A DNA stretch of 64,000 nt from Oscillospiraceae bacterium (GTDB taxonomy: Bacteria > Bacillota > Clostridia > Oscillospirales > Ruminococcaceae), in assembly GCA_009781425.1 (NCBI GenBank), contig WQYC01000001.1, forward strand, positions 1-64,000, given 5' to 3'. The notes under the pieces are model-generated. The model did no database searches. It saw only the letters and a program-made list of their open reading frames with translations, and had not been told where the DNA came from. Positions 276 through 44,116 of the stretch are shown here, in pieces. How positions within the stretch are numbered: the stretch's first letter is position 1; each line of letters begins with the position of its first letter. The translations under genes were made by a program, and so were the position numbers.

Positions 276-304
276 AATTTATTTTTGTTCCCTTTCAAAT
301 AAAC

Positions 305-331: not shown

Positions 332-349
332 ATAATTAAAACTTACAAA

Positions 350-1672: not shown

Positions 1673-1687
1673 GATTAAAAAATTCCT

Positions 1688-1769: not shown

Positions 1770-1800
1770 GAACCTCTCGTTATTTTAATGTAATATTATA

Positions 1801-1829
1801 ATTGTATAATATTTCCGCGCAAATGTCAA
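1801..1829 (-). promoter_or_regulatory. Sigma-A-type promoter of xylA
   Basis: On the minus strand TTGACA (1824-1829) is followed after 17 bases by TACAAT (1801-1806), a near-consensus housekeeping promoter facing xylA. It leaves an untranslated leader of roughly 120 bases. Confidence 0.8.
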
Positions 1830-1847
1830 GAGGGCGAAAATAAATAT

Positions 1848-3308
1848 TTAAAATCTCCACATACTCTGCAACCATGATTCACCATCATCATAAACTATTT
1901 CATAACACATTCCCTTTTGCCATGCGCCTTCAAAAATCGCCGCGCCACCACGGTTTAAATCGTCAGCGGTTCTAAAAACTCTGATGCTGTCTACGTTTTC
2001 GTAACCCATTATGCTTTCGATTAATTCCTCAACAGTTTCTGCTCGGTCAGCTGCACTCATCAACTTATTCACGAATTGTTTCTCGTATGCAGTAATCGAG
2101 ACGGTTGAATCCTCGTCAAAAATCATCAGCGGCGCAAGGTCAATCCACTCACAGTCACAGCCGGGGTCATCGGCTTGCGGAGACTCTGTGATTTCGTCAC
2201 GGCAGCCCATGTAAGTTAAGAAACAGTTATTAACATCAATTTCAACCGATGTATTGAGCGTGTAAATAGAAATGCGCCTGTCGTAATCATCAAATACACC
2301 GAATCCGTCATGACAAGCAAACGTCGAAATGAATGTACCGGTAGAATCCCACCACTGCGTCGAAGTATCAACAAGCTGATAATTTTTAACAATATCAGCG
2401 ACCGTTGCAGGCAGTTCAATCCCAACGAATATTTCATCAGCAGGAACCTGCATATATCCGTATGTGTTCTCAGTAAACGGAAACAGTTCATCAAATAGCG
2501 CGGTGTTTATGTAAGGCTTGGCGGTTTCGGTTTCACCGAAGCCGATAATCCCCCAATAATCGCCGACTCTCGCGAAGGCTGTGTTTTTGCTGATTAACAA
2601 TAATTCTTCAAATTCAAACGGTACGATTATATCTCCGCTTTTGTTTATAATTCCGTGCATATTTTCAGAGTCAACAAGTGCTACTGCGCCGTAAACAGCT
2701 CTGCCCCACCCTCCGTCAGTGTAAATGAAATCGGTGACAAAATTATTCCCGACTGCCGCCGCAACTCCGTGAAATGCTCCTTCGTGACGATAAATATTAC
2801 CTGCCGAGTCAGGAAGCTTTGTTGAATCAACACGGATAATAACCTTTATTGTATCTGCTTCATCAGGAAAATGAACTTCAAATTCATTCATAGGCAGCCA
2901 ACCCTCAGAGCCGCCTAAATCAAAGAATTTAGTTATAATATCTAACTTTTCGTCATACAGCCACTTCAATCTGCCGCCGCTGTGAGTTCCGCAGTATTCA
3001 GCCGTCGGCAATCCCGTTTTTTCATCTACGCCCTTTCCGTCACCTGTGTTAAATACATCATGCCCGCCGCAGTAATAAAGCCAGTCATACTCAAGCGCAG
3101 GCTCTACAAGCCATGTGAAGCTGTGCTCGTCAGACGGGACGCTGAGGACAGCGTCCCCTACGTCCGGCTGTTCGATTTCAACGACTTGGAAATCGTCCGC
3201 TGTCGGGCGCGGGTCGAAGACCTCTTCGGCTTCGGGCTCGCTTCCGCAGGCGGTGAAGCTTAGCACGAGCGATAAAATAAGTACTAAAGCTAAAAATTTA
3301 TTTTTCAT
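1848..3308 (-). CDS. Lipoprotein with WG/KWG-like repeats
   Basis: A 486-residue exported protein with a type II signal: MKNKFLALVLILSLVLSFTACGSE ends in a clear lipobox (FTAC), so it should be lipidated and anchored outside the membrane. The upstream in-frame ATGs lack a ribosome site; the chosen ATG follows GGAGG at 7 bases. Around residues 220-270 the text NMHGIINKSGDIIVPFEFEE followed by GDYWGIIGFGETE resembles WG-repeat modules seen in surface proteins. No enzymatic motif was found. Residues about 50-63 (PDVGDAVLSVPSDEH) are encoded by a 26-base palindrome shared with another lipoprotein and thrS. The gene is monocistronic with its own promoter. Function unknown. Confidence 0.75.
   Translation of the reverse strand: MKNKFLALVLILSLVLSFTACGSEPEAEEVFDPRPTADDFQVVEIEQPDVGDAVLSVPSDEHSFTWLVEPALEYDWLYYCGGHDVFNTGDGKGVDEKTGLPTAEYCGTHSGGRLKWLYDEKLDIITKFFDLGGSEGWLPMNEFEVHFPDEADTIKVIIRVDSTKLPDSAGNIYRHEGAFHGVAAAVGNNFVTDFIYTDGGWGRAVYGAVALVDSENMHGIINKSGDIIVPFEFEELLLISKNTAFARVGDYWGIIGFGETETAKPYINTALFDELFPFTENTYGYMQVPADEIFVGIELPATVADIVKNYQLVDTSTQWWDSTGTFISTFACHDGFGVFDDYDRRISIYTLNTSVEIDVNNCFLTYMGCRDEITESPQADDPGCDCEWIDLAPLMIFDEDSTVSITAYEKQFVNKLMSAADRAETVEELIESIMGYENVDSIRVFRTADDLNRGGAAIFEGAWQKGMCYEIVYDDGESWLQSMWRF
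3136..3161. repeat. 26-bp in-frame palindromic element, copy 1 (lipoprotein gene)
   Basis: The plus strand reads GGGACGCTG, loop AGGA, CAGCGTCCC, then CTAC: a perfect 9-bp stem. In the gene's sense it begins GTAGGGG and is read as V-G-D-A-V-L-S-V-P. Copies in the same orientation and frame lie at 6656-6681 in thrS and 15730-15755 in the other lipoprotein gene. Confidence 0.8.
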
Positions 3309-3335
3309 ATGTACCTCCGAAATTTTCATGATACT

Positions 3336-3365
3336 ATTATAACACACGAAAAGCACGAAAGTCAA
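3336..3365 (-). promoter_or_regulatory. Sigma-A-type promoter of the WG-repeat lipoprotein
   Basis: On the minus strand TTGACT (3360-3365) and TATAAT (3336-3341) are separated by 18 bases, about 25 bases upstream of the chosen ATG at 3308. Confidence 0.75.
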
Positions 3366-3434
3366 ATTATTACCCTACACAAAAACATTCCCGCAGGCAT
3401 ACAATAGCTTCAAGGAATGAAAGAAGGTGATTAG

Positions 3435-3635
3435 GTGGCTTTGATTGTCTTAAAATCAATGACGGAAGCCGGAAAAGCGAGGTATCACCTCGAAAAGTTC
3501 AAAATAAACGCAATAGTTGAAAAGCTGACGCTCCCCGGCGGCGGCTGCGGTTACGGCGTGCGGGTAAAAGAAGACCCTGACAAGGTTTGCAGGCAGTTAA
3601 GTTTAGTAAACATAGAATGTGTTGAAATTAGATAG
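3435..3635 (+). CDS. DUF3343 family putative sulfur/selenium carrier-like protein
   Basis: A 66-residue protein starting with GTG, preceded by AGAAGGTGA. It has the compact alpha/beta pattern of DUF3343 and the conserved PGGGCGYGVRV segment with a central cysteine. This is typical of small proteins encoded beside cysteine desulfurase-like enzymes and proposed as Se/S carriers. It is followed after 14 bases by such an enzyme on the same strand, supporting a shared role in persulfide or selenide handling. The carrier role is inferred from family context; no selenium genes such as selD are in the window. Confidence 0.75.
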   Translation: MALIVLKSMTEAGKARYHLEKFKINAIVEKLTLPGGGCGYGVRVKEDPDKVCRQLSLVNIECVEIR

Positions 3636-3649
3636 GAGAAATTTCTAAA

Positions 3650-4801
3650 ATGGTTTATCTTGACAACGCCGCGACTACATACCCCAAGCCCATACCCGTT
3701 ATCGCATCAATGTCGCGCGCAATGGTTAATTACGGCGGTAATCCCGGCAGAGCCGGACACAAGCTTTCAATGGAAACGGCGCAAGCTGTTTTCACTTCGC
3801 GGCTTAAATGCGCCGAGTTCTTCGGTGCGGAGCCTGAAAATGTAATCTTTACACTGAACTGCACACACGCGCTCAACCTTGCAATCAAAGGTATAATCAG
3901 CCCCGGCGCGCACCTTATAACCTCGGACATAGAGCATAACGCGGTGATTCGCCCTGTTCACGCCGCCGCAAAGGAGAACGGTAATTCCTATTCAATCGCG
4001 CGGACAACAAATAACGAGGACGAGACAGTGCGCAATTTTGAAAAGCTGATTAACGCCCGCACAAAGGCAATTGTCTGTACTTCTGCAAGTAACGTGACAG
4101 GGAAGATTCTGCCGCTGAAAAGACTCGCAGAGGTGTGCAAAAAGCACAAAATCTGCTTCATTATTGACGCGGCGCAGGGTGCAGGTGTGATTCCGATGAA
4201 GCTTTCGGACGGAATAAATATTATTTGTACGGCGGGGCATAAGGGGCTTTACGGCCCCATGGGCACAGGTCTGATGATTACCGACGGCAAGTTCCGTCTG
4301 CGTACAATTATCGAGGGCGGAACAGGTAGCTTCAGCAAGGAAATCGAACAGCCCGAAGTCCTTCCTGACCGCTTTGAAAGCGGAACTATCAACACCTGCG
4401 GCGCGATTGCGCTCGGCGCGGGAATCGACTTCGTAAACGAAAAAACAATTGACCGAATCTACAGGCACGAGCATAGTCTCTGCGAGCTTTTTTACAACGA
4501 GATGAAGCTGAACAACAAAAAAGTTAAGGTCTACACAGATACATATGAGCATAACCGCGTTCCGCTTGTACCTTTTAATATAGGGAGCATGGATTCTACA
4601 GAGGCTGCGGCTCTGCTGTCAAAGCAAGGCTTTTATCTGCGCGGCGGGTTTCAATGTGCGTACATGGCGCATAAGAAAATGGGTACGCAGGAGGTCGGCG
4701 CAGTGCGGTTCGCGCCGTCGGCGTTCACAAACAGGCATGATGTCATGATGTTTATTAAAGCCGTGAACAGAATCAGTACAAAAAACACCAAAGCCCTGTA
4801 A
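3650..4801 (+). CDS. Cysteine desulfurase family aminotransferase (class V)
   Basis: A 383-residue PLP enzyme. It begins MVYLDNAATTYPKP, the class V opening motif, has the PLP lysine in TAGHKGLYGP (about residue 198), and the catalytic-loop cysteine in RGGFQCAYMAHK (about residue 336). The architecture matches the cysteine desulfurase subfamily that often accompanies DUF3343. It would release sulfur from cysteine as an enzyme-bound persulfide in the cytoplasm, probably passing it to the upstream small protein. No IscU or SufU scaffold lies nearby, so Fe-S assembly is not the obvious role. It starts at ATG after AGGAGAAAT. The stop codon lies in the 5' arm of a terminator hairpin. Confidence 0.88.
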   Translation: MVYLDNAATTYPKPIPVIASMSRAMVNYGGNPGRAGHKLSMETAQAVFTSRLKCAEFFGAEPENVIFTLNCTHALNLAIKGIISPGAHLITSDIEHNAVIRPVHAAAKENGNSYSIARTTNNEDETVRNFEKLINARTKAIVCTSASNVTGKILPLKRLAEVCKKHKICFIIDAAQGAGVIPMKLSDGINIICTAGHKGLYGPMGTGLMITDGKFRLRTIIEGGTGSFSKEIEQPEVLPDRFESGTINTCGAIALGAGIDFVNEKTIDRIYRHEHSLCELFYNEMKLNNKKVKVYTDTYEHNRVPLVPFNIGSMDSTEAAALLSKQGFYLRGGFQCAYMAHKKMGTQEVGAVRFAPSAFTNRHDVMMFIKAVNRISTKNTKAL

Positions 4802-4822
4802 ACTTGCATTTACAGGGCTTTT
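4790..4822. terminator. Bidirectional intrinsic terminator
   Basis: Thirteen-base arms AAAGCCCTGTAAA and TTTACAGGGCTTT surround a 6-base loop, with a T-run following on the plus strand and GGTGTTTTTT following on the minus strand. It ends the cysteine desulfurase gene from the left and the tRNA-Ser transcript from the right, and includes the desulfurase stop codon. Confidence 0.85.
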
Positions 4823-4823
4823 A

Positions 4824-4911
4824 CGGAGAAGGTGGGATTCGAACCCACGTGCCGTTTCACCGGCAACTCGATTTCGAGTCGAGCTCGTTATGACCACTTC
4901 GATACTTCTCC
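4824..4911 (-). tRNA. tRNA-Ser(CGA)
   Basis: On the minus strand the acceptor stem GGAGAAG pairs with CTTCTCC, followed by discriminator G and no encoded CCA. The anticodon stem CTCGA/TCGAG encloses CTCGAAA, giving anticodon CGA for UCG codons. A long variable arm (GCCG-GTGAAA-CGGC type) and a GTTCGAATC T-loop confirm a class II serine tRNA. It is a single-gene unit with its own promoter and terminator. Confidence 0.95.
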
Positions 4912-4925
4912 AAATCACAAAGACA

Positions 4926-4954
4926 AGTATAACATAAAAAAAATCTTTTGTCAA
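4926..4954 (-). promoter_or_regulatory. Promoter of tRNA-Ser
   Basis: On the minus strand TTGACA (4949-4954), 17 bases, then TATACT (4926-4931). The start point would lie a few bases before the mature tRNA 5' end. Confidence 0.85.
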
Positions 4955-4959
4955 CAAGA

Positions 4960-4987
4960 AAACCGCCTTTTGAAAAGACGGTTTTTG
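4960..4987 (-). terminator. Intrinsic terminator after the yjfB-like gene
   Basis: On the minus strand ACCGTCTTTTCAAAAGGCGGT forms a stem with one mismatch followed by TTTTC, about 15 bases downstream of the stop at 4999. Confidence 0.65.
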
Positions 4988-4998
4988 TTTTTTAAAAT

Positions 4999-5208
4999 TT
5001 ACGCTCTTATGTCCATAAGTCCGCCGATTTCGGTCACGCCTGCGGGAGGAGGAAGCATATCCGCCATAGAATTAATCACTGAAGCCGCCGCCATTGTGTT
5101 GGCATCCATGACCTTCTTGAGCATTTTTATCGACATTAAGCCGTCGCCGTTGTTAATCGACGCCATCGAACCTAAACTAAGAATCGCCGAATTAAACCCT
5201 GCGTCCAT
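4999..5208 (-). CDS. YjfB family putative motility protein
   Basis: A 69-residue protein with a central MSIKMLKKVMDANTMAAASVI helix, a proline-rich LPPPAG segment and a C-terminal GGLMDIRA ending. This pattern matches the small YjfB family, annotated as putative motility proteins and found mainly in flagellated Firmicutes. It starts at an ATG behind GGAGGAAAT, directly downstream of thrS with a 12-base gap, so it is probably co-transcribed with thrS. No flagellar structural gene is in the window. The biochemical role of the family is unknown. Confidence 0.65.
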   Translation of the reverse strand: MDAGFNSAILSLGSMASINNGDGLMSIKMLKKVMDANTMAAASVINSMADMLPPPAGVTEIGGLMDIRA

Positions 5209-5220
5209 AATAATTTCCTC

Positions 5221-6996
5221 CTAAATAATTTTGTCGGTTATTTCAAGCCTCAGCTTCTCGCAAAGCGCGTCTATAGACATTGCACCCAAATCAGCTTCTT
5301 TGCGTGAGCGAACCGAAATCTGCCCGGTTTCAACCTCGTTGTCGCCGATAACAAGCATATAAGGGATTTTCTGCAGCTGCGCTTCTCTGATTTTAAAGCC
5401 TACTTTTTCACTTCTACTATCTATATCGGCACGAATTGCATTTTTCTTTAGCGTTTTCACCAAACTTTCACAAAACTCGTTGTGGCGGTCGGCAATCGGA
5501 AGAATCCGCACCTGCTCCGGAGCAAGCCAAAGCGGGAACGCACCTGCGTATTTCTCTATTAACAGAGCTAACGTCCGTTCATAGCAGCCGATAGATGAAC
5601 GATGTATTATAATCGGGAATTTCTTTTCGCCGTCGCTGTCAACGTAAACCATGCCGAAACGCTCAGCAAGCTGAAAGTCAATTTGAATAGTAATCAGCGT
5701 GTCTTCCTTGCCGAAGACGTTTTTAATCTGAATATCAAGCTTGGGGCCGTAGAACGCCGCTTCGCCGTCAGCTTCGTAATATTTTATGCCTGTTTTGTCG
5801 AGAATCTCCCGCATAAAGTCCTGCGTCTTTTCCCACATTTCGGGGTCACCGATGTATTTTTCGCGGTTGTTGCTGTCCCACTTCGAGAAGCGGAAGCTCG
5901 TGTCTTCCTCTAAGCTGAGCGTTTGCAACATGAAGCGCGCTAAATCAAGCGCGTCTAAGAATTCCTTCTCGACCTGCTCGGGAGTGCAAACGATATGCCC
6001 CTCTGAAAGCGTGAACTGACGAAGCCGAATAAGCCCGTGCATTTCGCCGCTTGATTCGTTGCGGAACAGCGTTGCTGTTTCGTTGTAGCGAATCGGCAAA
6101 TCGCGGTAGGAGCGTGCGCGGTTCAGATACGATTGAAACTGAAACGGACAGGTCATAGGGCGAAGCGCGAAGACTTCTTTGTCTTTCTCCTCGTCGCCCA
6201 TGACGAACATTCCATCTTTATAGTGTTGCCAGTGTCCTGAAATCTTGTATAAATCCGACTTCGCGAAGGATGGCGTCTTCGTGAGGACGTAGCCTCTCGC
6301 CTGCTCTTCATCTTCAACAAAGCGTTGCAGAATTTGCAATATTCTTGCACCTTTTGGCATAAGGACAGGAAGCCCTTGCCCGATATGCTCGGAGGTTGTA
6401 AACAGCTCTAACTCGCGCCCAAGCTTGTTGTGGTCGCGCTTACGCGCTTCTTCCATAGCCGTTAAGTGCTCCTCTAACTGCGCCGCTTTCGGGAACGCCG
6501 TTCCGTAAATTCTGCACAGCATTTTATTTTTCTCGCTCCCGCGCCAATACGCACCCGTAGAACTCAACAGCTTGAACGCCTTTACTTTGCTTGTGTAATT
6601 AATGTGCGGGCCCGCGCAGAGGTCAGTGAATTCGCCTTGTTTAAAAAACGTAAGCGGGGCGTCGAGGACGTCGCCCCCTACAAGCTCGTTTATCAGTTCG
6701 ATTTTATAAGGCTCGTCCTTAAACAGCGTCAAAGCCTCGTCAAAAGGAAGCGTGTAATGCTCTAATTTGAGATTTTCTTTGACGATTTTTTTCATTTCGA
6801 CTTCGATTTTTTCCAGGTCTTCTTGTGTGAAAGGTTTTTCAACGTCGAAGTCGTAATAGAAGCCGTCGTCAATTGCGGGACCTATTGCAAGCTTGGCTTC
6901 GGGGTAAAGCCTTTTCACCGCCTGCGCCAAGATATGCGCGGCAGTGTGACGAAATGCTTTTAAACCGTTTTCGTCTTCAATATTAACAATAATCAT
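5221..6996 (-). CDS. thrS: Threonine--tRNA ligase lacking the N-terminal TGS domain
   Basis: Charges tRNA-Thr in the cytoplasm. The chosen ATG follows GGAAAGAAG; a further upstream ATG would add 13 basic residues without a ribosome site. At 591 residues it is about 50 shorter than Escherichia coli ThrRS: it opens directly with the editing domain (FRHTAAHILAQ, residues 15-25) and has no TGS module. Editing-domain motif CAGPH is near residue 127. The core has the zinc ligands Cys283 (MTCPFQF), His334 (SEGHIVC) and the later IIHRSS histidine, motif 2 RNESSGEMHG, and a C-terminal anticodon-binding domain. Residues about 106-114 (VGGDVLDAP) are encoded by a palindromic repeat, apparently adding residues in a loop of the editing domain. 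Confidence 0.95.
   Translation of the reverse strand: MIIVNIEDENGLKAFRHTAAHILAQAVKRLYPEAKLAIGPAIDDGFYYDFDVEKPFTQEDLEKIEVEMKKIVKENLKLEHYTLPFDEALTLFKDEPYKIELINELVGGDVLDAPLTFFKQGEFTDLCAGPHINYTSKVKAFKLLSSTGAYWRGSEKNKMLCRIYGTAFPKAAQLEEHLTAMEEARKRDHNKLGRELELFTTSEHIGQGLPVLMPKGARILQILQRFVEDEEQARGYVLTKTPSFAKSDLYKISGHWQHYKDGMFVMGDEEKDKEVFALRPMTCPFQFQSYLNRARSYRDLPIRYNETATLFRNESSGEMHGLIRLRQFTLSEGHIVCTPEQVEKEFLDALDLARFMLQTLSLEEDTSFRFSKWDSNNREKYIGDPEMWEKTQDFMREILDKTGIKYYEADGEAAFYGPKLDIQIKNVFGKEDTLITIQIDFQLAERFGMVYVDSDGEKKFPIIIHRSSIGCYERTLALLIEKYAGAFPLWLAPEQVRILPIADRHNEFCESLVKTLKKNAIRADIDSRSEKVGFKIREAQLQKIPYMLVIGDNEVETGQISVRSRKEADLGAMSIDALCEKLRLEITDKII
6656..6681. repeat. 26-bp in-frame palindromic element, copy 2 (thrS)
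   Basis: The plus strand reads GGGGCGTCG, loop AGGA, CGTCGCCCC, then CTAC; the stem has 8 of 9 pairs. The sense strand starts GTAGGGG and is read as V-G-G-D-V-L-D-A-P. Orientation, frame and loop are the same as at 3136 and 15730. Confidence 0.7.
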
Positions 6997-7048
6997 AGTT
7001 TTTCTTCTTTCCTTTTTCTTTATAGTATAGTGCAAATCTATTTTTATT

Positions 7049-7663
7049 CTATTCTTGCCACTTCAAAAGCAGCGTAGTCAGCTTCTCCGTCAGTGCCGAG
7101 TAATAAAGCGGGAACATCGCGTCCATACAGCCGAGCAGGAACATATTCCTGTTGTTGATGATGGAAAGCTCCTTCCCTCTCGTGTAAATCCAGCGTCTGA
7201 ACCACTCGCCGTCGAAAGCAGGCTCGGGCTGACGGTTTCGTGCAATTTTGAGCATTGTTTTCAAATCTTCTTCAATGATTTCGCCGTAGTTCTCCGCTCC
7301 GCGCTTAACCGCGAGCGCGTAGAGGTCTTTGATGTGCGTTTCCTTCAGCGGGCAGAATTCCATAGAACGCCGCAGAAAAGGAAGCCGCAGTATGAACATA
7401 TAATGAATCATAGACTTCACGCGCTTGAACTCGTCGGACGCCATTTCACCGATTTTCGAGTCGTTAATTAAAATTCCGAGGTTGTCAAGAATGTCGGGAT
7501 TCGTGACGTCGGACAGCGCGACCTTGAAAATATCCTTGCAATTAATGTTATAAAAATCGCTCTCCGAAATCACATAAATATATTTCATCGTGTTGAAAAG
7601 CGACTGCGCTGTGTTTTCAATTATTTCGGTAAGAATAGTACGTTCCTTAAACTCAAAATCCAT
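7049..7663 (-). CDS. Uncharacterised 204-residue protein
   Basis: I do not recognise this protein. It is soluble, without signal peptide or membrane segment, and predicted mostly helical, opening MDFEFKERTILTEIIENTAQ. It contains isolated cysteines but no metal or nucleotide motif. It starts at ATG after AGGAGACAT and its stop lies about 50 bases before the thrS start, so it is probably transcribed with thrS. The c-di-GMP phosphodiesterase gene lies directly upstream, separated by a palindromic repeat. Codon use looks like its neighbours. Confidence 0.8.
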   Translation of the reverse strand: MDFEFKERTILTEIIENTAQSLFNTMKYIYVISESDFYNINCKDIFKVALSDVTNPDILDNLGILINDSKIGEMASDEFKRVKSMIHYMFILRLPFLRRSMEFCPLKETHIKDLYALAVKRGAENYGEIIEEDLKTMLKIARNRQPEPAFDGEWFRRWIYTRGKELSIINNRNMFLLGCMDAMFPLYYSALTEKLTTLLLKWQE

Positions 7664-7685
7664 ATTTTTATGTCTCCTAAATATA

Positions 7686-7713
7686 GTAGGGAACGCATTA
7701 ATGCGTTCCCTGC
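7686..7713. repeat. GTAGGGAACGCAT palindromic element
   Basis: GGGAACGCATT and AATGCGTTCCC form a perfect 22-base palindrome bounded by GTA on the left and TGC on the right. It lies between the EAL gene stop and the ribosome site of the next gene. A near-identical half occurs in the compound element at 44060-44116. Confidence 0.8.
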
Positions 7714-7722
7714 GGTCATTTG

Positions 7723-9984
7723 TCAGTTTACAGCCAACGCGTCGCTGTAGAGTTGTTTTTCGTATTCCTCAATCGGCATCGGTCTCGCGAAGTAGAAGCC
7801 CTGCGCCATATCGCACTTTAAGTCGCTGAGCAGATTAACCTGCTCTATGGTTTCGATTCCCTCGCAGATTGTCTTCATTTGAAGCGACATCGCAAGATTA
7901 ATCACGTGATGAATAATGTTATTTGCGCGCTCGTTATGAGTGTCTGAGAGGAACGAGCGGTCGATTTTAAGTACGTCAACGGGCAGGTTTTTGAGCATAT
8001 TGAGAGACGAGTAGCCCGTGCCGAAGTCGTCGATTGAAATATGGAAGCCGTAGTTTTTGAGCTCGTTGAACACGCGGGTGAGAATATCTAAGTTTTCAAA
8101 AGCAACGCTCTCTGTAATTTCAATTTCAAAGTACTTAGTCGGGACATTGTATTTGTTGCAAATTTCATATAATTCGCGCACAAAGTCCGGTTCCTGCAGG
8201 TTCATACGTGACATATTTACAGAAATCGTTTTCATTTCGTAGTTGCGGTTCATCCACAGCTTCTGCTGCTTGCAGACTTCTTCAAAAACGAACTTGTCTA
8301 TTTTTGTGATGAAGCCGTTCCGCTCAAAAATCGGAATAAATCCGCCCGGCGGTATCATCTTGCCGTCTCTGAACCATCTTACGAGAGCCTCCGCGCCTAT
8401 TATCTGCGAGTGGTCGGTTAAGTTGTATTTAGGCTGGAGATAAACCTTGAATTCATTGCTTTCAAGGGCGTATTCCATGATGTTTTCTATGCGCTTTTCT
8501 TCGCGGATTTTAACAAGCATATTCTCGTCGAAGAAGGCAGAGGAGCTTTCGTTGCCGCCTTTAATAGTTTTGCGGGCGAGGTCGGCGCGGTCAATGATTG
8601 AGCGAATATCCATAGTCATGTCGTCAATTTTATAAACGCCGAACGACAGAATCAGTTTATATTCCTCGATTTGATAATATGTATCGTTTATAAATGTTTC
8701 AATGCGTCCAAAAATGTCAACATCGCTTGTGTACTTAATTAAAATGCAGAACGAGTCGGCACTTCTGCGAGAGTAAAACTCATCTTCATTTAGCCCTGCT
8801 TGAATCAAAGCCGCGAGCTTAATGAGTATTCTGCCGCCTTCTTCATAACCGAGGTGGTCATTAACTGTGCGGAATTTGTTAATATCCACTGAAATCATCG
8901 CATACGTGCTTGCTTCATCGTCTGCAGAATTATCAAACGCGTTTCTAACATCGGCAAGGAATTTCTCGAACGAAGGTCCTCCTGTGAGCGTATCAACATA
9001 TTTAAGACTGTCCCGTTCGGAAACAGCATCAAAGAACCTGTTCTTGGAAATCCAGTATTTAAAGCCGCCGAAGAGCCACCCGCCCAAAACAATCAGCATA
9101 AATACCATCGTAAACGTCGTTGACATTGTTAAAACATTGTCAGAGAAGGCGAGGATATCGCTTGAGCAAATCACGGTAATAATGACCCATTCGTTGAAGC
9201 CCACGGACTTATACGAAGCCGCATAATGCTCTTCATCAAAATCGAAGTTGAAAACGCCCTGCGAGCCTTCAACGGCAATATTTCTGAGGATAGCGGAGGC
9301 TGTGTCTGTAGTCGGGGTTATATCATCGAAAAACGAAATACCAGGGTCAAAGCCGAGAATATCAACGTTTGGTCTTAAAACAATTGCGCCTTCAAGGTTC
9401 ATTATGTAGCTCGACGCGATTCCGCCGAGAGTTTCAGAATAGATTGCTTCAATTAAGGCTTCGGTGTCATAAACGCCCGTCAGAACGCCCGTGAGCTCCC
9501 CGCCCGTGTAAACCGGAACAGCAAATATATTTACTCTTGTGTTGGTGTATTCGTCAACAATTATGCTCGAAATGTTCGCTTTTCCCTCTTGGATTGCATA
9601 CTGGAAGTAATCGCGCCTGTTTAAAAATGCGTGACCGTGATAGGCGGAAAGCGCGCCCCCCTCAAGGTTTATGTATCGCAAGTCGCTGAACGCGCTTGCG
9701 TTTGCTGTTTGAACAAGGATTCTCATCTGCTCCTCTTCGGAAATAGCGTCAAATCCCGCGAAACGATATGTATAATTTTTTACCGAGGTGAAAAGCTCGT
9801 TGAGCTTCATGGAAATAGAATTTGCCGCCTCGAAAGCAATTTCGTCAAAATAGACAAGATTGTCAGCTTCGATAGCGCTTCTGACGTTGTTTATATAAAA
9901 AATGCAGGCGAAAACAACTGCAATCGCAACAATTCCAAGAACTAATGTGTATTTGACTTTGGATTTATAAATGCCGCCCACCAT
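7723..9984 (-). CDS. Membrane c-di-GMP phosphodiesterase (dCache-degenerate GGDEF-EAL)
   Basis: A 753-residue signalling protein. A transmembrane helix near residues 10-30 is followed by an extracytoplasmic dCache-like sensor (about 35-275, including NRRDYFQYAIQEGKANIS and RVNIFAVPVYTGGELTGVLTG as separate landmarks), a second helix, a GGDEF domain (about 320-480) and an EAL domain (about 500-750). The GGDEF signature is replaced by RRSADSF, so cyclase activity is unlikely. The EAL domain has AEALVRW, EITES and DDFGTGYSSL, as in active phosphodiesterases that hydrolyse c-di-GMP to pGpG. The ATG at 9984 is preferred over a GTG two codons upstream because GGGAG lies 7 bases before it. It has its own promoter. 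Confidence 0.9.
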   Translation of the reverse strand: MVGGIYKSKVKYTLVLGIVAIAVVFACIFYINNVRSAIEADNLVYFDEIAFEAANSISMKLNELFTSVKNYTYRFAGFDAISEEEQMRILVQTANASAFSDLRYINLEGGALSAYHGHAFLNRRDYFQYAIQEGKANISSIIVDEYTNTRVNIFAVPVYTGGELTGVLTGVYDTEALIEAIYSETLGGIASSYIMNLEGAIVLRPNVDILGFDPGISFFDDITPTTDTASAILRNIAVEGSQGVFNFDFDEEHYAASYKSVGFNEWVIITVICSSDILAFSDNVLTMSTTFTMVFMLIVLGGWLFGGFKYWISKNRFFDAVSERDSLKYVDTLTGGPSFEKFLADVRNAFDNSADDEASTYAMISVDINKFRTVNDHLGYEEGGRILIKLAALIQAGLNEDEFYSRRSADSFCILIKYTSDVDIFGRIETFINDTYYQIEEYKLILSFGVYKIDDMTMDIRSIIDRADLARKTIKGGNESSSAFFDENMLVKIREEKRIENIMEYALESNEFKVYLQPKYNLTDHSQIIGAEALVRWFRDGKMIPPGGFIPIFERNGFITKIDKFVFEEVCKQQKLWMNRNYEMKTISVNMSRMNLQEPDFVRELYEICNKYNVPTKYFEIEITESVAFENLDILTRVFNELKNYGFHISIDDFGTGYSSLNMLKNLPVDVLKIDRSFLSDTHNERANNIIHHVINLAMSLQMKTICEGIETIEQVNLLSDLKCDMAQGFYFARPMPIEEYEKQLYSDALAVN

Positions 9985-10019
9985 ATACACTCCCTTTTCA
10001 ACAAATCATTAATAATTAC

Positions 10020-10048
10020 ATTATACACTATGCTTTTTTAAATTGCAA
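10020..10048 (-). promoter_or_regulatory. Promoter of the EAL gene
   Basis: On the minus strand TTGCAA (10043-10048), 17 bases, TATAAT (10020-10025), with the ATG about 36 bases downstream. Confidence 0.75.
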
Positions 10049-10141
10049 TAGTTTTATCGAATATTTTACATTTATTATGAAATAAATATGCTAAAGGTAT
10101 AGATTTTGCACAACTGTTTTTATGGAATAGTTACACTTATC

Positions 10142-10170
10142 AAGCCGCCGGTATAAACCGACGGCTTTTT
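10142..10170. terminator. Intrinsic terminator hairpin after the DUF1540 gene
   Basis: AAGCCGCCGG and CCGACGGCTT can pair around TATAAA with one mismatch. The T-run (TTTTT) is on the plus strand, but the nearest gene reading into it is the minus-strand DUF1540 gene 30 bases away, so its effective direction is uncertain. The remaining 10049-10141 sequence is AT-rich and holds nothing else I can identify. Confidence 0.5.
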
Positions 10171-10201
10171 CGACATTTTTAAATGATTTTCAGCTTTTTA
10201 T

Positions 10202-10369
10202 TTAGCGGCGTTCCTTGAAGGATTGGCAGTCGGTGCACTCGTTTTGGCTGGGGTGATTTTCGTGAGTTCCGACTTGGATTTTCTTCAGCGCGCAGTATTC
10301 TTCGTCACTGCAGTGATTTGCACAGTTATAGATTGTGCAGGCGATTGCCTTATTTACATATTCTGCCAT
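10202..10369 (-). CDS. DUF1540 small cysteine-rich protein
   Basis: A 55-residue protein translated from the minus strand, with ATG at 10367-10369 and GGAGAA 5 bases upstream. It reads MAEYVNKAIACTIYNCANHC at the start and ends with NECTDCQSFKERR. The pattern of paired cysteines (CTIYNCANHC, YCALKKIQV, CTDC) fits the DUF1540 family of short, probably metal-binding proteins common in Clostridia and Bacilli. Its role is unknown. A double GC-rich hairpin lies immediately upstream of the ribosome site and a terminator-like hairpin follows. Confidence 0.85.
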   Translation of the reverse strand: MAEYVNKAIACTIYNCANHCSDEEYCALKKIQVGTHENHPSQNECTDCQSFKERR

Positions 10370-10382
10370 TTTAATTCTCCTT

Positions 10383-10421
10383 GGCGGCGTGTCGCCGCTG
10401 ACAATTCGCCGCTTCGCGGCG
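10383..10421. repeat. Tandem GC-rich double hairpin
   Basis: Two adjacent hairpins: GCGGCG-TGT-CGCCGC (10384-10398) and CGCCGC-TTC-GCGGCG (10407-10421), separated by TGACAATT. They lie between the HAD phosphatase stop and the DUF1540 ribosome site. The arrangement looks like a dispersed intergenic repeat, but this is the only copy in the window. Confidence 0.6.
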
Positions 10422-10451
10422 TTGTATTTATTTTAAGCAGAATCAACAGAT

Positions 10452-11114
10452 TTATGCGTTTAAAATAATATCGCAGGCTTGCAGAAGGTTTTCGGCTATG
10501 TAATCCGCGCCGTATTCCTCAAATTCTTCGCGGCTTCCGAAGCCGGAGAGCACAGCGATTGACGCGACGCCTGTGTCCTTCGCGCCCACGATGTCATAAA
10601 ACCTGTCGCCGACCATGACTGCGCGTGAAAGTGCGTCACCGCTGATACCGAGAGTATCGAGCGCGTGCTGAATTATTTCATTCTTTTCGTGCCGCCCGCC
10701 CGAATCCATTGAAGCCGCCGAAATAAACTTAAAATGCTTCAGCAAGCCAAAATGCTCCATAAGCTTCACGGCCATTTCTTCGGGCTTTGAAGTCGCCATT
10801 GCAATTATTTTACCTGCCGCCGAAAGCCGTTCGAGAAGCTCCTCCGCTCCCGCGATTAATTCATTTTCATATAAACCTTTCGGCATATATCTTTCACGGT
10901 AAAGTTCTAAAGCGCGCTCGGCTTCCGTTTCGGTGAAGCCGACGTTCTGCATGAAGCCTGTCCTCAGCGGAGGTCCGATGAACTTAGGTATCAGCGAATC
11001 GGGGACGAGCGGCTTGCCCATCTTTTCCATTGCGTAGTTAATTGAGTTTGTTATGCCTTCGACGGGGTTCGTGAGCGTGCCGTCTAAGTCTAAAAGTACG
11101 TAGTCGAATTTCAC
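10452..11114 (-). CDS. HAD hydrolase, phosphoglycolate phosphatase-like
   Basis: A 220-residue cytoplasmic HAD enzyme with motif I DLDGTLTNP (nucleophile and acid Asp near residue 9), the PGP-like cap (GITNSINYAMEKMG), motif II ATSKP and motif IV VGDRFYDIVGAKDTG. This is the arrangement in Gph/PpaX/YjjG-type phosphatases that act on small phosphorylated metabolites. It lies downstream of a hypothetical gene and uridine phosphorylase; a nucleotide-related substrate is possible but not shown by sequence. Starts at ATG. Confidence 0.85.
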   Translation of the reverse strand: MKFDYVLLDLDGTLTNPVEGITNSINYAMEKMGKPLVPDSLIPKFIGPPLRTGFMQNVGFTETEAERALELYRERYMPKGLYENELIAGAEELLERLSAAGKIIAMATSKPEEMAVKLMEHFGLLKHFKFISAASMDSGGRHEKNEIIQHALDTLGISGDALSRAVMVGDRFYDIVGAKDTGVASIAVLSGFGSREEFEEYGADYIAENLLQACDIILNA

Positions 11115-11156
11115 TTTATTTTCCCTTCATGCATAAATATTTTATAAGTATCGGCG

Positions 11157-11615
11157 TCAACTGCACAGAATTTTTAAAGCCTTTACGGTTTCCGCACCGT
11201 ATACATTTTCAATAATGTAATGCTTATCATCATTTATGGGGATTTCGTCACTTGTAAAAACCCCATAACCTCCGACAGACAAAGCAACAACTATGAAAGA
11301 TTCTGCATTTTCTGTTATTTCTATAGTTTCATCGTTTTTTATGGGTATTACTTTCTTGTTCAGTCCTTGAAGCTTCAAAGGAAAGCCGGCGTCATCAAAG
11401 TCAAGTTTATAAGCGGGGATAAAAGTATTATTTTTATTCCACGGAAAAAAACTCACTAAGCTAAGCTTTGTCTTCATATTGGCTTTCAAATTCTTTGCGC
11501 CGATATATTCATTGAATTCATTTAAGTTTTGGTTAAGTATAATGAAGTAATCATTGTGCCGTTCAAGTCTCCAGTTTTCCTTCTTCCTTGTGATTTTAAT
11601 TTTTACTGATAGCAT
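11157..11615 (-). CDS. Uncharacterised 152-residue protein
   Basis: I do not recognise this protein. It opens MLSVKIKITRKKENWRLERH and is rich in alternating hydrophobic and polar residues suggestive of beta strands, with no signal peptide and no catalytic motif. It starts at ATG after AAAGAGGATG and lies 29 bases downstream of uridine phosphorylase on the same strand, so it is likely co-transcribed. It is more AT-rich than its neighbours, which might reflect later acquisition. Confidence 0.7.
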   Translation of the reverse strand: MLSVKIKITRKKENWRLERHNDYFIILNQNLNEFNEYIGAKNLKANMKTKLSLVSFFPWNKNNTFIPAYKLDFDDAGFPLKLQGLNKKVIPIKNDETIEITENAESFIVVALSVGGYGVFTSDEIPINDDKHYIIENVYGAETVKALKILCS

Positions 11616-11644
11616 AAATACATCCTCTTTAATAACTATTGATG

Positions 11645-12430
11645 TTATTTCTTATCCGCCTTAATCAATCTTCTTACTGCGCCGATTGCGCACATGATTG
11701 CGCGCTCTGTGTCTTTTGTGACAGTATCGGGAAGCCCCGCTTTAGTACGCTCGACGTTCCAAATCGCGAGCATAACCCCACCCGCACGGACTCTGCGGGT
11801 CAGCGCGACAGAAAAAACAGTCGCTGCTTCCATTTCCGAGGTCAGACAGCCGGATTTAATGTAGCTTTCCCAGCGTTTTTCGAGCCAATCACCGACAGGC
11901 ATTGTTTCGGGCGCGACCTCTCCGTAGAAGCTGTCCTTACTCTGCACAACGCCCACGTGAAACCGCTTGCCGTCCTCGTCTTCCGAGAGAACAGCGGCTT
12001 CCTCCGCAAGTGCCTTCGTGACCTCAAAGTCAGCAACTGCGGGATAATCGGGCGTTAAATACTCGCGGCTTGTCCCGTCTCCACGAATAGCCGCCTGCGC
12101 AACCACTAAATCGCCGCCCATGACCTTCATGTCCATACCACCGCTTGTACCTACTCTTATAAAGGTATGTGCGCCGCACTTAATAAGCTCTTCCACCGCA
12201 ATTGCCGCAGAAGGCCCGCCGATACCTGTTGAGCAGACGCTAACCTTTACGCCGTCTAAGTAACCTGTAAAGACGTTGTATTCACGATTATAAGCGACTT
12301 GCTCCGCGTTGTCTAACTTCGCCGCTATTTTCGGTACGCGCCCGGGGTCACCCGGAAGAATAACATAACCGCCGATTTGTTCACTATTCGTCTTGATATG
12401 AAATTGCAGGTCTCCGCTCATGATTCCCAT
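11645..12430 (-). CDS. udp: Uridine phosphorylase
   Basis: Catalyses reversible phosphorolysis of uridine to uracil and ribose-1-phosphate in the cytoplasm. The 261-residue protein has the phosphate-binding PGDPGRVPKIA near the N-terminus, STGIGGPSAAIAVEEL, the RVGTSGG loop and the late SEMEAAT segment that contacts ribose, as in Udp/DeoD-family nucleoside phosphorylases. The order and wording of these motifs are closest to uridine phosphorylase, but a related pyrimidine or purine specificity cannot be excluded. The ATG follows AAAGGA. It is 5 bases downstream of a membrane protein gene and probably in the same operon. Confidence 0.88.
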   Translation of the reverse strand: MGIMSGDLQFHIKTNSEQIGGYVILPGDPGRVPKIAAKLDNAEQVAYNREYNVFTGYLDGVKVSVCSTGIGGPSAAIAVEELIKCGAHTFIRVGTSGGMDMKVMGGDLVVAQAAIRGDGTSREYLTPDYPAVADFEVTKALAEEAAVLSEDEDGKRFHVGVVQSKDSFYGEVAPETMPVGDWLEKRWESYIKSGCLTSEMEAATVFSVALTRRVRAGGVMLAIWNVERTKAGLPDTVTKDTERAIMCAIGAVRRLIKADKK

Positions 12431-12435
12431 AATTT

Positions 12436-12867
12436 TCAGTCCTTTCGCTTTTCAAGTATAGACGGCGCGGGTGCGTTGAGCTTTTCGCGGCGATTTTCGA
12501 TTCTGCCTGTGATATAATGCGGATTAATTACAAAAACGTAGATAACCGCAAGAATAGTCATGAAAATCTGCGGCATATACGTAAATGAATACGCGTGCTC
12601 CGAAAAAACCGCATGGATATAAAGCGTCAGAGCCGTCCCCGCAATCGCGCAGGCAGCGGCGAGCTTCGCTTTATCAAGCATTATTAAAAAGCATGGTGCA
12701 AAATACCCGACTGCCGCCGCAATGAGCCACACGCGGAGCGCGTGGTGTGAGGCGATTCCCAATTCGCTGTTCATGATGAAAAGCGGCGCGATAACGCCGA
12801 GAAAAACACCGCACACCGAGGTTATGAGCAGGATTATAATCCGAATAATTTTTTTTGCAAATTTCAT
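12436..12867 (-). CDS. Small four-helix membrane protein of unknown function
   Basis: A 143-residue protein with four hydrophobic segments (about residues 5-32, 42-64, 68-90 and 97-116) and a charged C-terminal tail (GRIENRREKLNAP). The N-terminus starts MKFAKKIIRI, suggesting an inside orientation. No transporter or enzyme motif is visible. It lies between the dockerin-like secreted protein gene and udp, all on the minus strand, with short gaps, so a shared transcript from the promoter at 13535 is likely. Confidence 0.75.
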   Translation of the reverse strand: MKFAKKIIRIIILLITSVCGVFLGVIAPLFIMNSELGIASHHALRVWLIAAAVGYFAPCFLIMLDKAKLAAACAIAGTALTLYIHAVFSEHAYSFTYMPQIFMTILAVIYVFVINPHYITGRIENRREKLNAPAPSILEKRKD

Positions 12868-12885
12868 TTATATTATCTTTAGGCT

Positions 12886-13503
12886 TTAGGAAACGCCTGC
12901 TACGAGTCTTAAAACTAAAATCGCGTCTGCTGTCGTGATTTCGCCGTCGCCGTTTAAGTCATACTTTTCTGTTTGCTCGGCTGTAAGCTCAATCATTCCC
13001 GCTGCCGCTCTGAGAATAGTTAACGCATCAGCGGTTGTAAAATCTTCAGCTGCAGCTTCTTCCGGCTCTTCTGCTTCTGCTTCAGGCGCAGGAGCAGAGG
13101 TCACCCATGTGTCAAGGTAAACCTTTGTGATTTTTGCGGCGTTACCCGCGCCCCAAGCGGCAAAAGCGATGTGCGGCTCTGAAAGCCCGCGTATATCGAA
13201 AATAATTATCCCGTCTTTGTCGGTGATTCGCGCATTGTCGGGGTTATATTCTGTCCAGTTCATAGCCCAGTATGAAAATCTGAAGCCGTCAGTGAGCGTT
13301 CCAGTGTATTCAACCACGACTCTTTCAGCATTTTTAACTGTACCGGCAGGAATATCGCCCTCGGGTGTTTCTCTCCAGTAATTCCACTCGTCGTTCGCGA
13401 AAGGCCCTTTAAGTTCGTAGGGAAAGGTTGACGCCGAAGCAGTGATTGTAAGCGAGAAAATAAAAGTTAATGCCAGAACTGAAGAAATAATCCGTTTTTT
13501 CAT
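12886..13503 (-). CDS. Secreted protein with C-terminal dockerin-like module
   Basis: A 205-residue protein with a signal peptide (MKKRIISSVLALTFIFSLTI, cleavage after ASAS). The middle (about 25-135) is a beta-rich domain of unknown type with several tryptophans. An acidic linker (PAPEAEAEEPEEAAAED) leads to a C-terminal repeat pair: ADALTILRAAAGM, and YDLNGDGEITTADAILVLR, the latter a canonical dockerin/EF-hand calcium loop. The first repeat has lost its calcium loop. Dockerins bind cohesins, but no cohesin or scaffoldin is in the window. A related degenerate module ends the protein at 47809-48726. The ATG follows AGGAGGG. Confidence 0.8.
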   Translation of the reverse strand: MKKRIISSVLALTFIFSLTITASASTFPYELKGPFANDEWNYWRETPEGDIPAGTVKNAERVVVEYTGTLTDGFRFSYWAMNWTEYNPDNARITDKDGIIIFDIRGLSEPHIAFAAWGAGNAAKITKVYLDTWVTSAPAPEAEAEEPEEAAAEDFTTADALTILRAAAGMIELTAEQTEKYDLNGDGEITTADAILVLRLVAGVS

Positions 13504-13534
13504 GGGAAGTCCCTCCTAAATTTTAATTTTATTC

Positions 13535-13563
13535 AGTATAACATATTTTTGCAGAAAAAGCAA
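13535..13563 (-). promoter_or_regulatory. Promoter of the dockerin-like gene
   Basis: On the minus strand TTGCTT (13558-13563), 17 bases, TATACT (13535-13540), followed by AGGAGGG and the ATG about 32 bases downstream. Confidence 0.7.
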
Positions 13564-13566
13564 CAG

Positions 13567-14625
13567 CTACTCTAATAATTCTTCCAAAATCTTGTCAAAC
13601 GCTCTGTGCATACGCTTAAAATCCATTCCCTCGCTGTATATTTCCTCGATTTTAGTATGTGCGTCGTTCGACTGCGACATTGTTTTGATTGCCTTTTGCA
13701 AGAGCTCATCGAAAATACCGTTGTTGTAATTGATTTCATTTTCGTATTTATTAATCGCTGTGCTCAAGAATTCATCGAAATTAATTTTCTCGGCTTCTGC
13801 TTCAACCTCGTGATAACGGTTTGAGGTTATAAAGGCAGTGTCAAGCTCTGGGATATATAAATGCTCGGTATTCGTAGGGGAAAGCGGGCTTTTAAAGCTC
13901 ACTGTGTCAAAGCCATGCAGGCTTGCGTTCCTTTGCGCTGTATCGAGCATTTCTGTTATGCCCATTGCGCCTATGCCGTTCAGAATATAAGTCTTTTCTG
14001 CTTTCAGCGCGGAATTTACAAGACTTTTCACGCCTCTTGGCGTAATCGCCGTCGCGAAAAGCTTTCTGTCGCTTGCGCCCTGCCCTGCTTTCGCTTCGCC
14101 GAAAATCCGCAATATTTCAAGAATCCGCACGTTAAGCGCGGCGAAGTTCAACGCGTTCTCGTAAACCGCTTCGTTCAGACGGTAAATCTGATTCGCAGAG
14201 CTAAGATAGCCGTAAGCCCGTTTGTAAAGAGCCTTTTTCTCGGCAAGCAATTCAATGAGGCTGTTTTTGTTTTCTTTTATGTAAGCTTTGTCAAGAAATT
14301 CCGAGGCGTTGAAAATTTCGTCACACGCGGCGGGAAGCTGAGGGTCGGCTGGGTGCGGGGAGGTTCCGTCTACGACTGCGATTCCCGCGCCGAGAATGTT
14401 TATTCCGTCAATGCTGTTCGCGTCGTTTGAGCAGTGGAAATACTCGGCGGTGAACCCGCGCTTCTCAAAAATACCCGCGGTTTTCTTCATGAGCGTGCTC
14501 TTCCCTGTTCCCGAGCCGCCTTTTATGTAGATTTTTCTTTTTGTATCGCCGAGCGGCAGAATATTATCGTAGAAACTGAAAAAGCCCGACGGCGTATTCG
14601 CGCCTGCAAAATAATGTCGTGACAT
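13567..14625 (-). CDS. PRK06851-type P-loop ATPase
   Basis: A 352-residue cytoplasmic protein opening MSRHYFAGANTPSGFFSFYD, with Walker A GGSGTGKSTLMKK (about residues 36-48) and the HCSNDANSIDG segment typical of the uncharacterised PRK06851 ATPase family. The family carries two P-loop halves; here the second (LNGIGAMGITEMLD) has lost the canonical GKS/T, so only the N-terminal site is likely to bind ATP productively. Function of the family is unknown. Its Shine-Dalgarno GGAGGG lies in the 3' arm of the terminator hairpin that follows the upstream lipoprotein gene, so transcription and translation may be coupled in an unusual way. Confidence 0.8.
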   Translation of the reverse strand: MSRHYFAGANTPSGFFSFYDNILPLGDTKRKIYIKGGSGTGKSTLMKKTAGIFEKRGFTAEYFHCSNDANSIDGINILGAGIAVVDGTSPHPADPQLPAACDEIFNASEFLDKAYIKENKNSLIELLAEKKALYKRAYGYLSSANQIYRLNEAVYENALNFAALNVRILEILRIFGEAKAGQGASDRKLFATAITPRGVKSLVNSALKAEKTYILNGIGAMGITEMLDTAQRNASLHGFDTVSFKSPLSPTNTEHLYIPELDTAFITSNRYHEVEAEAEKINFDEFLSTAINKYENEINYNNGIFDELLQKAIKTMSQSNDAHTKIEEIYSEGMDFKRMHRAFDKILEELLE

Positions 14626-14626
14626 A

Positions 14627-14677
14627 AAAAAGCCCTCCGTGTTTAAGTATACCTTATAGTATATTAAACGCGGAGGG
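14627..14677 (-). terminator. Terminator hairpin overlapping the next gene's ribosome site
   Basis: On the minus strand the arms run from CCCTCCGCGTTTAAT to TTAAACACGGAGGG with a small central loop and are followed by CTTTTTT. It ends the lipoprotein transcript. The 3' arm contains GGAGGG, positioned 7 bases before the ATG at 14625, and the T-run abuts that ATG. Confidence 0.7.
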
Positions 14678-14687
14678 GTTTTAGGAA

Positions 14688-15857
14688 TTAATCTGAAAAA
14701 GGCGTATAGAGATTTAAAACCTCGCCTTTTTCAATTAAATCATAAATCATTTCAAGCGGAATTCTTTCAAAATAATACAAATAATTATTGAAAACTAAAT
14801 TCGTATCAATTGTGTTACTATAAAAATGACCCACTGTAAGCACTAAATTATCATCATTAATCCTTATTTTCATAAACTCGGGATATTCTACAATCATTCC
14901 GTTCGATTCATCAGAAAGGTCATAATAATACAGCGCACCACCCTGCGAACCGTCTCTCATACCTATTATCACAAGTACAATTTCGTCATCAAGCCAAAAT
15001 ACGCGTTTATTCTCGTGTTGACGATAAATATTAATACCCTCGAAATCTAACCATCTTTGGCGACCGTATCGCGTCTCGTCTTGAACCCAATCCGGATATA
15101 TTTCTACTTCCCCTCTTGCATATATGTACGCAACCCTCTCTCTGTTAGGTGAAACGGCATAGTCATTTGCCACAACACCGCTGGAACCATCATCGCGCAG
15201 AAATTTTAATCCTCCACCGCCCGGAACTAATGTGTGCCCGTTTGCGAGTAATATTTCCTGACTGTTCCATCTATCATCTATCTCTTCAACGATTTTCGCT
15301 TCACGATATGCAAGTGAGTCGTCATAAACACTGTAACCGAGGATATATGTTTGCTTTCCGGTACTAAGTACCTTGAAAGTCACAATCGCGAAATCAAGGT
15401 TCGGCGGAATCGGAGGCAGGAAATCAATATAATAGTCTGTTTTTAAAGCGTAATCCACACCAAATAAAAAATTGCCTTGATAAAAAACAACTTCATCGTC
15501 AATAACATCAAAGCCGCCGAAGCTGTAAACCTTTAAGTCGAAAATATCGGCATTGCCAAGAAATATCACCCGTTCCATTCGTTCGTCGCCGCCGTCAAAA
15601 TAAATAGGAATTCTGCCTTGCAGGTCTTCTTCAGTGAAATTATAAGCGAAGTCAATACGGAAGAGCGGAGGTTCATTCACCTCCGTGGAGGAGTGCTCAA
15701 AGGGCGGGGTGGTTTCGTGTTCATCTTGCGGGACGCTGAGGACAGTGTCCCCTACATTGGGTTCATCAATTTCAACAGCGGCGGGTATTTCCCCGCCGCA
15801 AGCCGAACCTATAAAAATAATAAATGCAAAAACTAAACACAAAAATGCTTTTTTCAT
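14688..15857 (-). CDS. Lipoprotein of unknown function
   Basis: A 389-residue exported protein with lipobox: MKKAFLCLVFAFIIFIGSAC ends at the acylated cysteine (GSAC). The rest is beta-rich (for example FLPPIPPNLDFAIVTFKV and KTYILGYSVYDDS), perhaps propeller-like, with no catalytic motif. The ATG at 15857 follows GAGGGA; a TTG one codon upstream is not needed. Residues about 34-46 (PNVGDTVLSVPQDEH) resemble the other lipoprotein at 1848-3308 and are encoded by the palindromic element. It starts immediately after the GH43 stop, so the two are co-transcribed; a link with sugar sensing or binding at the surface is possible but unproven. Confidence 0.78.
   Translation of the reverse strand: MKKAFLCLVFAFIIFIGSACGGEIPAAVEIDEPNVGDTVLSVPQDEHETTPPFEHSSTEVNEPPLFRIDFAYNFTEEDLQGRIPIYFDGGDERMERVIFLGNADIFDLKVYSFGGFDVIDDEVVFYQGNFLFGVDYALKTDYYIDFLPPIPPNLDFAIVTFKVLSTGKQTYILGYSVYDDSLAYREAKIVEEIDDRWNSQEILLANGHTLVPGGGGLKFLRDDGSSGVVANDYAVSPNRERVAYIYARGEVEIYPDWVQDETRYGRQRWLDFEGINIYRQHENKRVFWLDDEIVLVIIGMRDGSQGGALYYYDLSDESNGMIVEYPEFMKIRINDDNLVLTVGHFYSNTIDTNLVFNNYLYYFERIPLEMIYDLIEKGEVLNLYTPFSD
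15730..15755. repeat. 26-bp in-frame palindromic element, copy 3 (lipoprotein gene)
   Basis: The plus strand reads GGGACGCTG, loop AGGA, CAGTGTCCC, then CTAC, differing from copy 1 by one base. It is read in the gene as V-G-D-T-V-L-S-V-P, the same frame and orientation as in the other two genes. Confidence 0.8.
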
Positions 15858-15860
15858 CAA

Positions 15861-16856: not shown

Positions 16857-16889
16857 TATAAATATTCCTCCAAAAATTATGTTTATTTA

Positions 16890-44059: not shown

Positions 44060-44116
44060 GTAGGGAACGCATTTATGCGTTCCTATTCTTGCGGAACGGA
44101 TGAATCCGTTCCCTAC
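44060..44116. repeat. Compound GTAGGGAACG double palindrome between uppS and cdsA
   Basis: Two hairpins in tandem: GGAACGCAT/ATGCGTTCC and GGAACGGAT/ATCCGTTCC. The whole is bounded by GTAGGGAACG on the left and CGTTCCCTAC on the right. Its right end supplies the uppS stop codon (TAG of GTAGGG, minus strand). The left half matches the element at 7686. Confidence 0.8.

Follow-up and report, generated by a model that had tools for sequence, protein, structure and literature searches.

In-frame GTAG-type REP palindromes and a RAYT gene in the genome of an Oscillospiraceae bacterium

The window analysed here, the first 64,000 nucleotides of contig WQYC01000001.1 of an Oscillospiraceae bacterium, carries three palindromes within protein-coding genes, two encoding lipoproteins and one, thrS, encoding threonyl-tRNA synthetase (ThrRS) (Table 1). 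These palindromes are copies of a GTAG-type repetitive extragenic palindromic (REP) sequence, here called B-type; copies of a second type, A-type, are also present in the window. All three B-type copies are on the minus strand, read in gene sense and in an identical frame, and the coordinates, shared orientation and shared reading frame given in a first-pass annotation of this DNA were borne out. The 9-base arms described there are perfect in the 3136 copy, with one mismatch in each of the other two. The core GGGACGCTGAGGACAGCGTCCC matches two of the three palindromes at no more than three mismatches, compared with 0 in 100 shuffles, and the thrS copy varies in its stem, where GG/CC replaces GA/TC. 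Counted from the translations, the element lies 28 residues from the presumed lipobox cysteine in one lipoprotein and 14 in the other. The host genes had been described as unrelated, which does not hold for the two lipoproteins, as these share a signal/linker region (27 of 65 residues identical, E = 4e-9).

Table 1. REP copies and host genes in the window.
Feature	Position	Strand	Remarks
B-type GTAG REP, VGDAVLSVP	3136..3161; 27-bp unit to 3135	-	in frame, lipoprotein A
B-type GTAG REP, VGGDVLDAP	6656..6681; 27-bp unit to 6655	-	in frame, thrS
B-type GTAG REP, VGDTVLSVP	15730..15755; 27-bp unit to 15729	-	in frame, lipoprotein B
Lipoprotein A gene, host of 3136 copy	1848..3329	-	open reading frame (ORF), gene call; N-region in common with lipoprotein B
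thrS, host of 6656 copy	5221..6996	-	matches in 59/60 congener genomes
Lipoprotein B gene, host of 15730 copy	14688..15857	-	ORF and gene call
A-type GTAG REP (GTAGGGAACGCATTAATGCGTTCC)	7686..7709	+	intergenic
A-type GTAG REP, first of inverted pair, GTAG outside	44060..44083	+	
A-type GTAG REP, second of inverted pair	44093..44116	-	

A search of the genome containing the window (2.55 Mb, 67 contigs, 97.7% complete) with the general pattern GTAGGGRNCGN{6,14}CGNYCC gave 203 exact matches versus 0 for the reversed pattern, excluding a chance origin; the first-pass reading as an in-frame palindromic element is correct, and the element recurs in the genome. A wider B-type pattern allowing up to one mismatch matched 137 times (control, 1), and a sample of 416 kb taken around pattern matches on 33 of the 67 contigs contains 224 GTAGGG hairpins, among them 107 B-type and 58 A-type copies. 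The B-type element comprises nine codons, GTA GGG ... CCG, read as the turn-like peptide V-G-x-x-x-x-x-x-P; its unit is counted as 27 bp, not 26 bp as first annotated, since all 75 in-frame 26-mers are directly followed by G, as are 91% of 23 intergenic ones. The GTAGGG start is present in 120 of 122 profile matches in the sampled stretches, and the base preceding GTAG is T in 65% of both genic and intergenic copies and never G.

Two invariant G-C pairs (stem positions 5/26 and 6/25) form the base of the B-type stem, followed by a variable third pair (GA, TG, CG, AA or other arms). Positions 5/26, 6/25, 7/24, 9/22 and 12/19 are paired in all 107 copies and positions 8/23 and 10/21 are complementary in 106 copies each, while 79 copies are mismatched at pair 11/20. 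The arm dinucleotides fall into 11 complementary types, namely GA/TC (35 copies), TG/CA (21), CG/CG (17), AA/TT (12), GG/CC (7) and rarer others; together with the five stem pairs that are complementary throughout, they show a stem kept by paired changes.

GTAG REPs are described as having a GTAG foot, a stem of 8-9 bp, a short loop, paired stem variants, inverted dimers and many copies, some of them inside ORFs that include DNA repair and tRNA-synthetase genes, with flexible loops proposed as the reason that intragenic copies are tolerated (Di Nocera et al. 2013, PMC3733652). The palindromes of this genome share the GTAG foot before the stem, the stem length, the short loop, the paired variants, the inverted dimers, the high copy number and the intragenic copies, and the genome encodes a REP-associated tyrosine transposase (RAYT) with cognate REPs. 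They differ in location: the published REPs are mostly intergenic, with no reading-frame bias reported in the portion of the text available, whereas B-type copies are mostly intragenic and in one codon phase, only 14 of the 107 being intergenic and 8 overlapping a gene end. Given the published intragenic REPs, extragenic location is a usual trait of REPs rather than a strict criterion. Of the A-type copies, 34 are intergenic, 16 overlap a gene end and 8 are intragenic, and adjacent A-type pairs in the sample have GTAG outside in 22 of 22 cases, an inverted arrangement that recalls REPINs, which are inverted pairs of REPs and are presumed to be mobile together (PMC3116915). B-type copies are unlike REPINs in that 57 of the 107 are single intragenic copies in the GTA-GGG frame; other single copies are in antisense phase 0 (7), overlapping a gene end (6) or intergenic (5). 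The likeness to Rickettsia palindromic elements (RPEs) noted in the first-pass annotation holds for the mode, in-frame palindromes in many unrelated genes, but not for the sequence: RPE-4 and RPE-6 are CGTC repeats, to which no RAYT is tied in the accessible part of that account, and RPE-1 is longer (PMC3733652), whereas here the foot is GTAG and a RAYT gene is present.

Reading frames are denoted same0 (same strand, GTA-GGG), same1 (the other open same-strand frame) and anti0, anti1 and anti2 (antisense); genes were called by a simple codon-score script and the counts are approximate. The 85 B-type copies inside called genes are distributed over 68 distinct genes, with 72 in same0, none in same1, 11 in anti0 and one each in anti1 and anti2. 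Equal use of stop-free frames would give 17.7 copies in same0 (p = 4e-36) and 16.7 in same1. The GTA-GGG frame is not kept by every intragenic copy, a point that the first-pass annotation had raised as a check; across all hairpin types in the sample, 88 same-strand copies use it and 4 use another frame, and antisense copies number 21, 2 and 5 by frame. The share of Arg and Lys in the reading is 0.02 in same0, 0.54 in same1, 0.09 in anti0, 0.03 in anti1 and 0.43 in anti2. A 23-mer hairpin type with a milder second frame is found four times in same1 and once in same0, and this greater use of the other frame suggests that the peptide, rather than the landing phase, decides the frame. Hosts of the element, essential genes among them, include ThrRS, leucyl-tRNA synthetase (LeuRS), LepA, LigA, TsaD, IlvD and HtpG, in all of which but ThrRS matches to solved structures flank the element on both sides; RecA, DnaX, MetH and NusB are putative further hosts named from their N-termini alone.

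The RAYT gene (182 aa, single copy) is located at C1:120390-120938, on the contig of the window and 56 kb past it, and was found using a congener RAYT as the query. Its HUH and Tyr motifs are readable, and it contains two in-frame REPs of its own, VGGGVPDAP (same strand) ahead of the HUH motif and GSSGTPTPT (antisense) behind it, in the two frames that are commonest elsewhere in the genome; a third B-type REP lies 29 bp beyond the stop. Of 21 RAYT frames from the genus and family, 18 contain an in-frame REP and 15 an inverted pair, compared with a hairpin in 10 of 160 other open frames (at least 120 aa, same loci), some of which overlap RAYT. Three RAYTs outside the motif rule (G045b, L371 and L383) each have a REP pair, and in L376 the first REP may precede the true start. 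All but one of the 16 same-strand REPs in these frames use the GTA-GGG frame, and the 18 antisense REPs are in phase 0 (11), phase 2 (6) and phase 1 (1). In-frame REPs within the gene recall TnpAREP subclass 2.4, in which REPs lie within an intact RAYT frame with a GT[AG]G foot and a stem base of three G-C pairs, two of which are invariant in the B-type element; that subclass is reported mainly from Cyanobacteria and Bacteroidetes and its insert generally lies between HuH and Y (Quentin et al. 2018, PMC6006769), whereas here one REP usually precedes HUH and an inverted one follows.

One congener RAYT (L339) carries A-type REPs. The RAYTs of G163, a genome of the family (L164; L377, L381, L383), differ from the B-type RAYTs in that two A-type-like REPs both follow HUH, the first in antisense phase 2 and the second in the GTA-GGG frame. 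Pre-adaptation to coding DNA is disfavoured for the A-type, since the antisense A-type copies of this genome (3 in anti0, 0 in anti2) do not use anti2, the antisense frame of A-type RAYTs.

The B-type pattern is present in 7 of 60 congener genomes. When counted without a gene caller, stop-free stretches of at least 600 nt span 83 of the 107 copies in this genome, 0 of 22 in G039 and 2 of 23 in G045; some congener stretches stop at contig ends, which shortens their frames, and two of the G045 copies are within its RAYT, in frames of 558 nt that fall below the limit of this count. Identical 27-mers occur outside long frames in G039. In these two congeners the element avoids long open frames, and its location would have shifted from intergenic to coding between species. 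The outcomes that the first-pass annotation had named as refuting it did not arise: further copies are abundant in the genome of the window, and the residues of the element occur in none of 28 congener ThrRS sequences. The nearest relative by gene neighbourhood, G053 (90% and 92% identical in two genes of the window), has no RAYT detected at E <= 0.01, and many of its copies are decayed: the GTAGGG head is gone from 9 of 19 element-like matches in 778 kb, versus 2 of 122 here, although the comparison is uneven because the stretches here were chosen around intact matches, and scaling to the genome gives about a dozen decayed copies. At 3 of 17 in-frame sites shared with G053, the relative has a decayed copy and the copy here is intact and differs in its core, so some insertions are older than the split from G053 and may have been renewed.

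We consider it probable, at roughly 0.78, that a GTAG-REP family was spread by RAYT/TnpAREP, with harmful readings purged and mild readings kept. REPs of this kind are presumed to be spread by RAYT/TnpAREP enzymes. TnpAREP cuts single-stranded REPs beside the hairpin, the GTAG motif matters, and the mechanism of REP spread is described as open (PMC8266576); in their first description, RAYT genes were always REP-flanked (PMC2817692). The enzyme encoded at ~120.4 kb of the contig would copy REPs as single-stranded hairpins, and each copy, being 27 bp long, would keep the downstream frame at any landing site. The six possible readings comprise one with a TAG stop (from GTAG), two that are about half Arg/Lys or contain stops, and three mild peptides. 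Copies in harmful readings would be purged, and those read as VGxxVxxxP or as antisense GxxxTPxPT would survive in loops, linkers and protein ends, even in essential genes. We infer both that this RAYT mobilises the element and that the phase bias arises from peptide-based purging.

Several results weigh against this reading. The RAYT scores under the curated cut-off of NCBIfam REP_Tyr_transpos (E = 1.1e-15, 57.8 of 80 bits) and under that of Pfam Y1_Tnp, PF01797 (20.7 of 23 bits), and a PF01797 search of the genome gave 0 matches. A second RAYT cognate to the abundant A-type REPs, though predicted, was not found in the genome, and no strain pair displays a jump. The anti1 reading is low in Arg and Lys yet holds a single copy. 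Exactly 45 bp separate the copies of two pairs (C52:9237/9282 and C11:37467/37512), which suggests that a 15-codon unit of REP plus linker was duplicated locally. Clean insertion predicts a gain of nine residues, and none of the 17 in-frame sites aligned to G053 shows it (range -12 to +10). The ThrRS residues, suspected to be an insertion, are indeed missing from the congeners, but relative to G026 (88% identical over residues 1-149) the net gain is 9 bp, and the host gene lacks ~18 bp of its own sequence. In LepA, nine residues here correspond to seven in 8 of 9 readable relatives (+2) and to nine unlike ones in G026, five further loci being unmatched by the motif used. Finally, the ratio of same0 to intergenic copies, 72:14, is an approximately four-fold excess over the 1.3:1 given by uniform landing with full retention, so landing and purging alone are insufficient.

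Target-base preference explains a small part of the same0 excess at most. Homology-guided landing by RNY-like codons was considered and rejected, as its symmetry would favour anti1 like same0, and anti1 holds one copy. A tentative possibility is that the REP family has adapted to coding DNA: because the RAYT carries the REP pair inside its own reading frame, the hairpin would have been selected as substrate and as mild peptide in two readings, and REPs would then colonise genes genome-wide above random landing, replacing loop stretches.

Turnover in place, in which new REP copies overwrite or convert old copies and similar loop sequence with no clean insertion, is rather unlikely. It accords with the three shared sites that are decayed in G053 and intact with a different core here, with a chance scan of 778 kb in which 0 scores were as high as those of the decayed copies, with the missing nine-residue gains, and with the exchange of 27 bp for 18 bp in ThrRS and for ~21 bp in LepA. 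However, 14 of the 17 sites have no clear older copy in G053, loop length varies anyway and could be restored by later deletions, and the aligned sequences, at 52-85% identity, are too diverged to place the junctions.

The element might also be a functional peptide motif, VGxDVxxVP, selected in the protein and spread by duplicated coding modules. By a rough rule, protein bodies hold 37 of the 80 in-frame 26-mers counted, linkers that are acidic or rich in Pro hold 19, and the N-regions of lipoproteins 11, while 9 lie close to a C-terminus and 4 close to an N-terminus; the lipoprotein and linker copies, the recurring acidic frame in linkers (PD or PN before, QE or QD after), the N-region shared by the window lipoproteins and the excess of same0 over intergenic copies would all suit such a motif. 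The 37 copies in the bodies of unrelated proteins would not, nor would the start of the element with GTA and GGG, which are rare and make up 19% of Val and 17% of Gly codons; gta precedes 23 of 23 copies found by a pattern that does not require it. Residue 3 is altered by stem-pairing changes, the first residue is A, L or T in G053 at three shared sites, and congener DNA copies are mostly outside long frames, making this explanation very improbable.

Uptake sequences are high in copy number and often intragenic, as is the element, but a DNA signal (for uptake, recombination or the nucleoid) under selection for where it lies in genes, independently of the RAYT, is the least credible account, given the RAYT with cognate REPs in the genome, a single-frame bias unexpected for such a signal, and the identical 27-mers outside long frames in G039.

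Both intragenic GTAG REPs (PMC3733652) and in-frame REPs in RAYT genes (PMC6006769) are already published. In searches of the open-licence literature, neither a clostridial intragenic REP family, agreeing with the first-pass annotation, which knew of none in Clostridia, nor so strict a codon phase, nor a shift between species from intergenic to coding location was found; the text of PMC3733652 has no words beginning clostridi or firmicutes. The genome offers a natural library of ~70 genes, essential ones included, with one 27-bp hairpin in frame, alongside close relatives that keep the same hairpin outside long frames. Two questions can thereby be asked: by what route proteins come to accept a mobile palindrome, and whether selection acts on the frame in which a transposable element is read.

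At window positions 1-20000, no Rfam family passes its gathering score on the elements, and the sole feature that passes is a tRNA gene (4824-4911, minus strand, 58.4 bits). Elsewhere in the genome, locus L185 (G000:C11:36653-40498) encodes a protein of more than 1280 aa, not wholly contained in the stretch, whose acidic linkers hold six REPs on the same strand and one in antisense. The history of thrS is seemingly distinct from that of its neighbours: identity to congener L244 is 92% for the gene at 7049, 90% for that at 11645 and 57% for thrS, though thrS is 79-88% identical to other congeners. The ThrRS of G040 (L148) has an 18-residue insert a few residues past the place of the element, in the same variable loop, with the palindrome TCGGGCTTTGCCCGA.

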